A stretch of DNA of 64,000 bases from an uncultured Pseudomonadales bacterium (lineage in GTDB: Bacteria; Pseudomonadota; Gammaproteobacteria; Pseudomonadales; Pseudohongiellaceae), in the NCBI GenBank assembly GCA_949372635.1, contig CASIAB010000007.1, positions 357,221 to 421,220 on the forward strand, given 5' to 3'. Under the pieces are notes generated by a model. That model searched no databases, had not been told where the DNA came from, and saw only the letters and a list, made by a program, of their open reading frames with translations. Shown here piece by piece: positions 8,327-19,112 of this stretch. Both the position numbers and the translations under genes were made by a program. The number at the start of each line of letters is the position of its first letter. The stretch's first letter is position 1.

Positions 8327-9172
8327 TTAGTCTATCTGTAGATTCCATGATTCTACTTCATCGAGCATTTCGAAGTCGGTCCAATCGAATTTAAGCGGCG
8401 TTACCGATATATACCCCTGTTGGTAGGCATAGGTGTCGGTTGTAGGGTCTTCGGAATCCACAATCATTCGGACTCTCTCATAGTCTGTGGTCATGGAGTC
8501 TCTTACAGTAGGCTCATAGCGAGCGGTGCTTAGGTAAGAATCTCCCATTGGTCTTACGGCTACTCCCTTCAGTTCGCCGGCTGGGACGTTGATAGTAATC
8601 ATCGTGCCACTCGGCGCGCCAAGCCTGCGATATCGATCGACTAGATCGGCAGTGAACTTTGCGGTGATGGCTGTATTCTCACTATTGGGGTCTTCCGATA
8701 CGGCGATTGCCGGGAGTCCATGATACAAGCCTTCCATCGCTGCCCCTACTGTTCCAGATAGATGTGAAACGTTACCAACGTTTGCGCCGCGGTTTATACC
8801 GGACACAACGATATCGAAGGGTTGATCTTTTCCTAGCTCTTTCACGCCGAAGCGGACTGCATCGGCCGGCCTGCCATGAACGGCGTAGCCGAAGAAGCGA
8901 CCATCTTGCTCAAAGTTGTCGACAGTTATAGAGCCTATTGAGGATTGACTAGAACCTGATTGATTCACGTTCGGAGCGGAGACAACTACTTCTACACCTT
9001 CGAGTTGCGAAAGAGCTGCGTGCAGGGCATGCAGGCGTGGCGATTCTATTCCATCATCGTTTGAAAGCAGGACACGATAGGATTGAGCCGACGCTGCGGC
9101 ACTGAAGCAGGTCAGAACAATCGCCGCCGCAAATTGAGAGAAGCGTATTGAGCCTTTTATTGGTTCCATCAT
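8327..9172 (-). CDS. surE: SurE-type 5'/3'-nucleotidase with N-terminal signal peptide
   Basis: VLLSNDDGIESPRLHAL, SGSSQSS, GRPADAVRFG, DIVVSGINRGANVG, HLSGTVGAAMEGLYHGLPAIAVS are SurE signatures; preceded by FAAAIVLTCFSAAASAQ. Confidence 0.9.
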   Translation of the reverse strand: MMEPIKGSIRFSQFAAAIVLTCFSAAASAQSYRVLLSNDDGIESPRLHALHAALSQLEGVEVVVSAPNVNQSGSSQSSIGSITVDNFEQDGRFFGYAVHGRPADAVRFGVKELGKDQPFDIVVSGINRGANVGNVSHLSGTVGAAMEGLYHGLPAIAVSEDPNSENTAITAKFTADLVDRYRRLGAPSGTMITINVPAGELKGVAVRPMGDSYLSTARYEPTVRDSMTTDYERVRMIVDSEDPTTDTYAYQQGYISVTPLKFDWTDFEMLDEVESWNLQID

Positions 9173-16652: not shown

Positions 16653-17882
16653 ATGGAAGAGATTCAAACTTTTGTAACTCACCTTGAGTGTAGCTACACG
16701 GGAAAAATTTATCCGGCCGATCAACTTCACGGTCTGTCGGAAGCGGGCAAACCACTCTTGGTCAAGTACGACCTCGATGCTTTAGCGAAAGCGATAGACA
16801 AGGAAGATCTTGAGGGACGGTTGCCTGAGTTCTGGCGCTACCGCGAATTTTTACCGGTTCGTAAGGCGAGCAATATCATTCGGCTCGGCGAATTGATGAC
16901 CCCCATTTTGCCAGCTGAAAAATTGCAGAACGAGTATGGTTGCGGCGAGATTCTAATTAAGGACGAGGGACGCCTGCCAACTGGTTCGTTTAAGGCGAGA
17001 GGCTTGGCACTTGCCGTCGCAATGGCTAAGGAATTGGGCGTCAAGCGCATGGCGATGCCCACTAATGGCAATGCCGGCGCTGCGCTCGCCGCGTATTGTT
17101 CTGCGGCAGATATAGAGACTTATGTTTTCTGCCCTGAAGATACGCCTAAGGTAAATATCGAAGAGATCGCCTTCCAGGGTGGCAAGACATTCCTCGCCAA
17201 CGGCTATATCAATGATTGTGGCCGTATCGTTGGCGAAGGAAAAGAGGTCATGAATTGGTTTGATGCCTCTACCCTGAAAGAGCCTTATCGGATAGAGGGC
17301 AAGAAGACGATGGGATTAGAGTTGGCGGAGCAACTAGACTGGGATGTACCCGATGTCATTCTGTATCCGACCGGCGGAGGCACAGGCCTGATTGGCATGT
17401 GGAAAGCCTTCAATGAGCTCGAGGCTATCGGATGGATAGGGCCTAAGCGGCCGCGCATGGTAGCGGTGCAGGCCGAGGGTTGTGCGCCTATCGTTAAGGC
17501 GTTCGACGAAGGAACGCGCCACGCCGAGCCGTGGGTCGATGCACATACAATCGCGTCAGGCATTCGTGTGCCAGTGGCTGTCGGTGACTTCCTAATTCTG
17601 GATGCCGTGCGTGAGAGCAATGGCTTCGCGGTCGCTGTAAGCGACGAGTCTATATTTGAAGCACATCAGGAGTGTGCTCGCAAGGAAGGAATCCTGCTTT
17701 GTCCAGAAGGTGCGGCGACCCTCGCTGCACTGAAGCAAGAGCTGGCCAGTGGCCGCATAAAAGCGGATGAGCAGGTGATGCTATTTAACTGCGCAACGGG
17801 ACTAAAATACCCAATGCCATCTACGCATCATAAGATCGATCTTGGAAAACCGATCGACTACGACTTTATTCGCGATTGCTAG
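16653..17882 (+). CDS. thrC: Threonine synthase-like PLP-dependent enzyme
   Basis: THLECSYTGKIYPADQLHGLSEAGKPLLVKYD; IIRLGELMTPIL; DEGRLPTGSFKARG (PLP Lys); PTNGNAGAALAAYC; LYPTGGGTGLIGMWKAF. Confidence 0.88.
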   Translation: MEEIQTFVTHLECSYTGKIYPADQLHGLSEAGKPLLVKYDLDALAKAIDKEDLEGRLPEFWRYREFLPVRKASNIIRLGELMTPILPAEKLQNEYGCGEILIKDEGRLPTGSFKARGLALAVAMAKELGVKRMAMPTNGNAGAALAAYCSAADIETYVFCPEDTPKVNIEEIAFQGGKTFLANGYINDCGRIVGEGKEVMNWFDASTLKEPYRIEGKKTMGLELAEQLDWDVPDVILYPTGGGTGLIGMWKAFNELEAIGWIGPKRPRMVAVQAEGCAPIVKAFDEGTRHAEPWVDAHTIASGIRVPVAVGDFLILDAVRESNGFAVAVSDESIFEAHQECARKEGILLCPEGAATLAALKQELASGRIKADEQVMLFNCATGLKYPMPSTHHKIDLGKPIDYDFIRDC

Positions 17883-18065
17883 TTTCTACTCCTCACTCAA
17901 CGGAGCGTCGATGCAAGGCGCCCCCTCCTGCTCTATGTAAACTACTGCTTCCAGATTGTTGCGCTAATTCCAAAATTGCGTAATAACTGGTGATCTGAGG
18001 CATTCAAACTAGTCTTAGGTTATTTCTATGTGCATCGAGAAAAATTTTGTTACTTAGTTTGGAGA

Positions 18066-18275
18066 ATGGAAATGAGAGAACTTACGTCAGATGAGATAGA
18101 ACAGGTGGGCGGCGGCATCGGCATCGGTGAATACGCAGCGGACGGTGGAGGGCTCGGATCGATTATAGGAACCTTGTCAAGTGGCACTTTATATGGAGCT
18201 GGACGAGATGAAATGGCAGGAGGGTTACTTGGCGCATCCTTCGGTGCAGGCCGCATTTCCGCGCCGTTTTCTTAG
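18066..18275 (+). CDS. Small peptide with double-glycine-type leader (putative class II bacteriocin-like peptide)
   Basis: MEMRELTSDEIEQVGGG-IGIGEYAADGGGLGSIIGTLSSGTLYGAGRDEMAGGLLGASFGAGRISAPFS; leader matches the M-R-E-L-(T/S)-x-x-E-(I/L)-x-x-V-x-G-G pattern; Gly-rich mature part. Preceded by TTGGAGAATGG. Confidence 0.65.
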   Translation: MEMRELTSDEIEQVGGGIGIGEYAADGGGLGSIIGTLSSGTLYGAGRDEMAGGLLGASFGAGRISAPFS

Positions 18276-18458
18276 TATGTGTTTTTTTGCGAGATCGAAT
18301 AAGACAAACTAGCTATACTCACTTTCGGGAAGAGTTCAATCCTTACATAGTACGGGCTGAAAACTTGGATAGATTACTAACGTGCAGAATGAGTTTCTCG
18401 AGCAGCACGAAATTCGAATTGTTATCTGTGAGTTTAATTTAATAGGGAAGGATAAGAT

Positions 18459-19112
18459 GTGAGCGCAGCAGAGAACAAGAAGGGAATCGATCTTTATACT
18501 TGGAATACGCCGAATGGGCGTAAAGTGTCCATCATGTTAGAAGAGGTCGGCCTGCCTTATAGTGTTTTTCCCATTGACATTACGAAGGGCGATCAGCTCC
18601 AGCCGGATTTTTTGTTCCTCAGCCCTAACAATAAGATCCCCGCGATTGTCGATCACGATACTGGCATTCATCTAATGGAGTCAGGTGCAATACTAATGTA
18701 CTTAGCGAACAAGACTGGTAAGTTGCTAAGCCCAATCGGTGAGAAATACTGGGAACAGATGGAATGGTTAATGTTGCAAATGGGCTCAATTGGCCCAATG
18801 CTTGGCCAGACTCATCATTTCATAAAATTTAATCCAGGGAAGTCGCCGTATGCTGAGGAACGCTATAGTAAGGAGAATGCGCGCCTCTATCAGTTGCTAG
18901 AGAACAGGCTTAAGGATAGGGAGTTTATTTGTAATGAGTATTCGATAGTCGACATAGCAACCTGGCCATGGATATCTCGCTTTGATTTTCAGCAGATGAA
19001 GCTATCCGACTACCCTAACCTGAAGCGCTGGTATCTAAATGTAGCGAGCCGGCCAGCGGTGCGTAGGGGCTATGGCGTGCCAGATTTCTTGGAGGTGCCG
19101 TTGCCCGAGTAA
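18459..19112 (+). CDS. Glutathione S-transferase family protein (YghU/YfcG-like), GTG start
   Basis: IDLYTWNTPNGRKVSIMLEEVGLPYSVFPIDITKGDQ..SPNNKIPAIVDHDTG..LMESGAILMYLANKTGKL. Confidence 0.92.
   Translation: MSAAENKKGIDLYTWNTPNGRKVSIMLEEVGLPYSVFPIDITKGDQLQPDFLFLSPNNKIPAIVDHDTGIHLMESGAILMYLANKTGKLLSPIGEKYWEQMEWLMLQMGSIGPMLGQTHHFIKFNPGKSPYAEERYSKENARLYQLLENRLKDREFICNEYSIVDIATWPWISRFDFQQMKLSDYPNLKRWYLNVASRPAVRRGYGVPDFLEVPLPE

Follow-up and report, generated by a model that had tools for sequence, protein, structure and literature searches.

The double-glycine (GG) leader peptide gene at positions 18072-18275 of the 64,000-nucleotide stretch of DNA analysed here (the window) is very probably what decay has left of a gene for a class II microcin-like precursor. 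It has been truncated, its immunity-like ORF and exporter have been deleted, and it is probably now inactive. The preliminary description of the window had presented the peptide as an orphan and a candidate bacteriocin or signal. The class was right, as this is a GG peptide of the microcin or bacteriocin type, and its relatives adjoin a small hydrophobic immunity-like ORF in genomes most of which encode a C39 exporter. Export of the window copy as a bacteriocin or signal is unlikely in its present form, and its orphan state comes from loss and not from native design. In what follows G-numbers denote genomes, G000 being that of the window, and L-numbers denote loci.

The open frame on the plus strand runs from 18030 to 18275. 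The GG-leader ORF had been placed at 18030-18290; both the ORF and the leader are real, while the stop codon ends at 18275 and translation most likely begins at the ATG at 18072, giving 67 amino acids. A Shine-Dalgarno-like GGAG (18061-18064, plus strand) lies 7 nt from this ATG and the homologues point to the same start, so the GTG at 18030 was dropped as a candidate. The closest relatives' genes have the same upstream context. No match to a sigma-70 promoter or to a terminator was found at the gene. The product is MRELTSDEIEQVGGG followed by IGIGEYAADGGGLGSIIGTLSSGTLYGAGRDEMAGGLLGASFGAGRISAPFS. The leader (18072-18116, plus strand) is expected to be cleaved after residue 15 on the basis of an alignment (A2) in which MREL and the GG or GA are conserved across 13 intact relatives, so that the mature part begins IGIGEYAADGG. 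The core homologous to the glycine-rich peptide of the relatives occupies 18117-18258 (plus strand), and the 3′ end of the gene is fused to non-homologous DNA. As described previously, the gene is flanked by a threonine-synthase-like gene (thrC; 16653-17882, plus strand) on the left and a glutathione-S-transferase-like gene (GST; 18459-19112, plus strand) on the right. Both are conserved by synteny, thrC in L002, L140, L143, L144 and L145, and GST in L002, L069, L070, L072, L140 and L143-L146. The ORF has not arisen by chance, because homologues in the genus have sequence and synteny in common with it, and because the DNA pattern MREL-x9-GG occurs in excess, with about 80 matches across the 84 genomes of the genus and about 8 for a reversed control. 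There is exactly one match in G000. No second homologue of the peptide was found in this genome (2.81 Mb in 15 contigs, 87% complete), and a search for a plasmid-borne related peptide gave no match.

The nearest relative is the uncultured Pseudomonadales MAG G013, represented here by its loci L002 and L062. It has an intact peptide gene in the same thrC-GST interval, encoding 72 amino acids from MREL with 80% identity to the window peptide over 65 residues. Its C-terminus (...GHMAGSALYDWLS) falls within the stretch that is deleted from the window. A hydrophobic ORF of 95 amino acids (MNLKIAKRAIIVMC..., L002:8248-8535) begins 22 nt past the peptide. Intact precursors in the relatives are 71-74 amino acids long, and an HMM of the intact family covers the window peptide at positions 1-62 of 72 only. 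Strong matches to the peptide profile (E < 1e-20) occur in 22 of the 84 genus genomes including G000, which is the sole one of these that lacks the 95-aa ORF. The ORF matches no known family and no PDB structure in family and PDB searches. Judged from its hydrophobic stretches it probably sits in the membrane, and we infer that it is a candidate immunity protein.

Several variations were observed at these loci. In L069 (G035) and L140 (G115) the 95-aa ORF has an in-frame stop codon (TAG and TAA, respectively) beside an intact peptide gene, and the exporter is still present in G035. The peptide and the 95-aa ORF are duplicated in tandem in G017 (L068:469-693 and 1205-1429). A 26-aa match in G039 was considered as a decayed peptide; this was ruled out, since the match ends at the end of the contig (174116 bases), and the 95-aa ORF is present beside it.

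Comparison of window positions 17801-18500 with L002 by blastn yields a pair of collinear blocks. In the window they overlap by approximately 8 bp, at the short microhomology CCGxGyCG (18259-18266), and in L002 the distance between them is greater by 555 bp. The deletion is defined by these blocks; alignment of the two intergenic regions by MAFFT misplaced the gap. The 555 bp missing from the window include the end of the peptide (about 11 residues) and the 95-aa immunity-like ORF. The DNA at 18267-18458 is the former 3′ flank of the lost ORF leading into the GST gene, and is homologous to L002 from about 8757 to 8949. It had been proposed that an immunity ORF be sought in 18276-18458, which is part of this far flank and contains no related ORF. 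The reported lack of an immunity gene nearby holds for the whole of the 87%-complete assembly, in which nothing matches the immunity-like ORF of the relatives. Because the deletion fused the far flank to the gene, the last residues of the window peptide, SAPFS, derive from unrelated DNA, and its own terminal serine is accidental. No stable RNA structure was found at the junction.

A second deletion is found at a distant locus. The export operon of G013 (L062:6212-12637) encodes a C39 exporter of 701 amino acids, an HlyD protein, an acyl carrier protein (ACP), an acyltransferase, and proteins of 226 and 350 amino acids. By blastn the 6.7-kb block of L062 that contains the operon corresponds to about 100 bp in contig C7 of G000 (from about 123515 to 123618), approximately 252 kb from the peptide gene on the same 421-kb contig. 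The HlyD encoded with the C39 exporter in the relatives went with the operon. The earlier remark that no C39 exporter lies nearby extends to the entire G000 assembly, which contains no C39 domain (PF03412), no homologue of the relatives' exporter and, as the genome-wide search suggested at the time would also have asked, no other MREL-type GG peptide. That description named lack of a C39 exporter in the genome and lack of leader conservation in relatives as signs against its proposal; the former is what the assembly gives, and the latter is clearly not the case, with homologues across the genus. The ABC exporter within the window was likewise correctly said to lack a C39 domain, as MsbA-type models match it best, and it was rejected as an export route for the peptide. 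The frameshift attributed to it was not seen; it is a single open frame of 559 amino acids from 38090.

In every one of the 17 exporter-bearing genus members read at this site (L062, L082-L093 and L136-L139, a few being cut on one side by the ends of contigs or stretches), the operon has gcvP, the KdtA/M24/MAPEG/DUF1330 genes or both as neighbours. In 12 members besides G013 it lies between the KdtA/M24/MAPEG side and gcvP, with one side visible in L085 and L092. It is again at the gcvP/KdtA site in G109, G098 and G039, and on the DUF1330/MAPEG side in G107. Since the site is the same across exporter-bearing relatives, the gene order is best read as indicating that the operon was ancestral and was lost in G000.

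The coding sequence itself has changed. Over 59 codons, 10 synonymous and 10 non-synonymous substitutions separate the window peptide from that of G013, giving a dN/dS of 0.31, compared with 0.08-0.23 for pairs of intact peptides, 0.025 for thrC and 0.12 for GST. With five other peptides used to polarise the changes, about six replacements are assigned to the window branch (L6S, S13G, x16I, A44G, G46D and G47E, the last two at a conserved Gly pair in the core) against one on the G013 branch. This excess, in small numbers of substitutions, is suggestive of relaxed constraint.

We propose the following. In the intact relatives the C39 ABC exporter and HlyD adaptor would cut the precursor after GG and export the peptide, while the 95-aa protein encoded directly downstream would give self-protection. 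In the window lineage one deletion took the last 11 or so residues of the peptide with the immunity-like ORF, a separate deletion took the whole export operon, and the peptide gathered replacements at conserved positions. What remains is probably neither exported nor active.

It is very unlikely that this is a working orphan peptide, acting as bacteriocin or signal and exported by another G000 transporter or by an unassembled C39 exporter. The frame, leader and ribosome-binding site remain open and intact, which counts against a relic, and the data, from an assembly 87% complete, could lack an unrelated exporter. There is also a precedent in pneumococci, where a paralogue covers the loss of one exporter: in most strains ComAB covers defective BlpAB (PMC12150690). 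The blp locus with non-functional BlpAB offers a likeness, since many strains have lost the exporter and kept the peptide and immunity genes. However, ComAB takes over there, whereas in G000 no substitute was found, the whole operon is deleted so that the syntenic exporter site is empty, and the immunity-like ORF has gone too. The C-terminus has moreover been swapped for unrelated sequence, and Asp-Glu replaces the conserved Gly pair. Still less credible is that both deletions are misjoins of a draft assembly. Its incompleteness and its 15 contigs would allow for such errors, but the joins at two separate loci are clean and fall within a long contig where the flanking genes are normal, the short microhomology at one breakpoint is of a kind often seen in real deletions, and the independent point changes likewise point to relaxed constraint.

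A different question is whether the family is antibacterial at all. Class II microcins have a GG precursor, an immunity protein, a C39 exporter, a membrane fusion protein and TolC (PMC10233263), and the combination of GG precursor, adjoining small hydrophobic ORF, C39 exporter and HlyD in the intact relatives is this architecture. Varied cores behind a constant leader are also typical of toxin-like peptides. We consider it rather improbable, given these features, that the peptides are instead signals or surface- or lipid-associated factors with the 95-aa protein as, for example, a partner or receptor, a reading that would be compatible with the window gene being a relic. In its favour, the antibacterial function of the family is putative, the 95-aa ORF is without a family or structure match, and the Pfam matches are weak. 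Bacteriocin_IIc (PF10439) matches 10 of the 13 aligned members (best E 1.8e-5) and MccV (PF17508) 11 of 13 (best E 1.3e-4), the member scores shown being below the gathering cut-offs. The window peptide matches MccV alone, with E 0.57 and 11.2 bits against a cut-off of 27.

Taking the family as microcin-like, it resembles the class IIa microcins of the microcin V type in its 15-aa GG leader and glycine-rich hydrophobic core and, in the intact relatives, in the small immunity-like ORF, C39 ABC exporter and HlyD. It differs in the weak Pfam scores, an exporter operon unlinked to the peptide, the ACP and acyltransferase genes and the Ser-ending cores; the window copy differs further in being truncated and without immunity-like ORF or exporter. 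Its leader falls within the 15-18 residues ending GG or GA of class II microcins. An immunity gene is not adjacent in G000; each of the other 21 genomes with the peptide has a candidate for one. The core is 52 amino acids in the window and about 56-59 in intact relatives, shorter than the 60-90 of known class II examples.

The exporter operon is lost repeatedly in the genus, while the peptide and immunity gene candidate persist. The gcvP site was read in four members that have both of these and no exporter match (G115, G003, G023 and G103). G115, G003 and G023 retain only pieces of the 350-aa gene, G023 with a piece of the acyltransferase gene in addition, and G103 retains a piece of the 226-aa gene. 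Among genomes with a Ser-ending peptide and no exporter match, the acyltransferase gene and the 226-aa gene are both broken in G002, the 226-aa gene is split between frames in G046, a 226-aa-like match contains a stop codon in G118, and G014 has a fragment; acyltransferase, ACP and a shortened HlyD remain in G114. The 226-aa fragments are only indicative, because some weaker profile matches are to a separate transposase-like gene of about 330 amino acids. The contigs of G059 and G118 end at or near the gcvP site, so that the exporter may only appear to be absent there. G009 is likewise without an exporter match.

Two of the operon proteins deserve description. Next to the exporter, type-1 operons encode the 226-aa protein (L062:7312-7992 and homologues, alignment A3), which is similar to Y1/RAYT transposases; Y1_Tnp matches 3 of 15 members with a best E of 0.0096, and there is no HUH motif in the alignment. 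Its profile also matches a transposase-like ORF of about 322 amino acids in G000 (L286:510-1478, G000:C7:170509-171477), which by eye is REP-associated tyrosine transposase-like. The 350-aa protein (L062:6212-7264), at the gcvP end of the operon, is hydrophobic by eye and belongs to no known family; its gene is often the last piece remaining after exporter loss.

The C-terminal serine is invariant in the 13 aligned intact peptides, so GG peptides were gathered independently by the DNA pattern. Fifty-five of 67 distinct GG peptides in the genus (40-160 aa), that of the window being one, end in Ser, against 72 of 978 ORFs (7%) of 200 amino acids or more in the same loci, with a binomial probability of 1e-50 that ignores relatedness. 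Cores of several dissimilar types have this end in common. The exceptions belong mainly to a Pro-rich group (...NPLTVTFGTP...), a second kind of GG peptide seen in L020, L162, L172-L175, L184, L186 and L194; genomes with such peptides mostly also have a tandem pair of NHLP-like ABC exporters. Using genome lists compiled by hand, 30 of the 84 genomes have both a Ser-ending peptide and a type-1 exporter, 5 the exporter only, 12 the peptide only and 37 neither (Fisher p 1.9e-8). The sister genus g39 has Ser at the end of 12 of its 13 GG peptides, compared with 0 of 9 in eight genomes outside the family (Fisher 2e-5, ignoring relatedness). The acyltransferase was found in 5 of 6 sampled g39 genomes, all five with the gene order ACP-acyltransferase-HlyD-C39; the sixth, G191, has a Ser-ending peptide and no acyltransferase match. 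Outside the family there was no match in 6 of 8 genomes and weak ones in G126 and G162 (E 2e-6 and 2e-8), which are perhaps ordinary lipid A enzymes.

All type-1 operons opened have ACP, acyltransferase, HlyD and C39, with two exceptions: the contig of L085 begins within HlyD, and a separate ACP was not found in L092. Other exporter types that were opened (HlyD with C39, or two tandem ABC proteins) gave no acyltransferase or ACP match. The C-terminal part of the acyltransferase matches PF03279 (E 3.6e-6) and, by profile against the PDB, mycobacterial PatA (E 2e-5). It has an invariant His within FHxG[D/E/N]F-type motifs but has not retained the usual HxxxxE/D, which leaves its catalysis uncertain. 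The Ser of the ACP is conserved, and the relatives' exporters have intact C39 Cys, His and Asp motifs. The association of the C-terminal serine with ACP and acyltransferase is the new part of the analysis. It argues for a connection of the serine with the operon, and fits modification of the serine and its recognition by the exporter alike; it suggests that the serine may be modified, possibly acylated. We tentatively raise the possibility, which we hold at rather less than even likelihood, of a new class II microcin-like branch in which the terminal serine is modified, most likely acylated, by the ACP and lipid-A-acyltransferase-like enzyme of the operon. The class IIb microcins (E492, H47 and M) offer a parallel, having a siderophore on a C-terminal Ser and dedicated modification enzymes (PMC10233263). 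They differ in having a Ser/Gly-rich siderophore-attachment region, which is absent here, where the relatives have a single terminal Ser preceded by varied residues and ACP and acyltransferase replace the siderophore-linking genes.

Taken alone, the gene in the window is a relic akin to a pseudogene, but it points to a family-wide system of GG peptides with diverse cores and a common C-terminal Ser, and an exporter operon with ACP and acyltransferase. No title or abstract in the literature searched, which lay mostly outside the subscription journals, describes this system or the attachment of acyl groups to such peptides. Acylation of the serine, if it occurs, would make these class II microcins of a kind tailored with lipid, whose enzyme and site are directly testable, and, because very different cores have the same end, a single machine for tailoring and export would supply the family with a whole repertoire of lipidated microcins. 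The genus presents stages at fixed loci, from peptide with immunity-like ORF and exporter, through loss of the exporter, to the truncated peptide alone in the window. These stages may make the dynamics of producer, resistant and sensitive states open to study across natural species.
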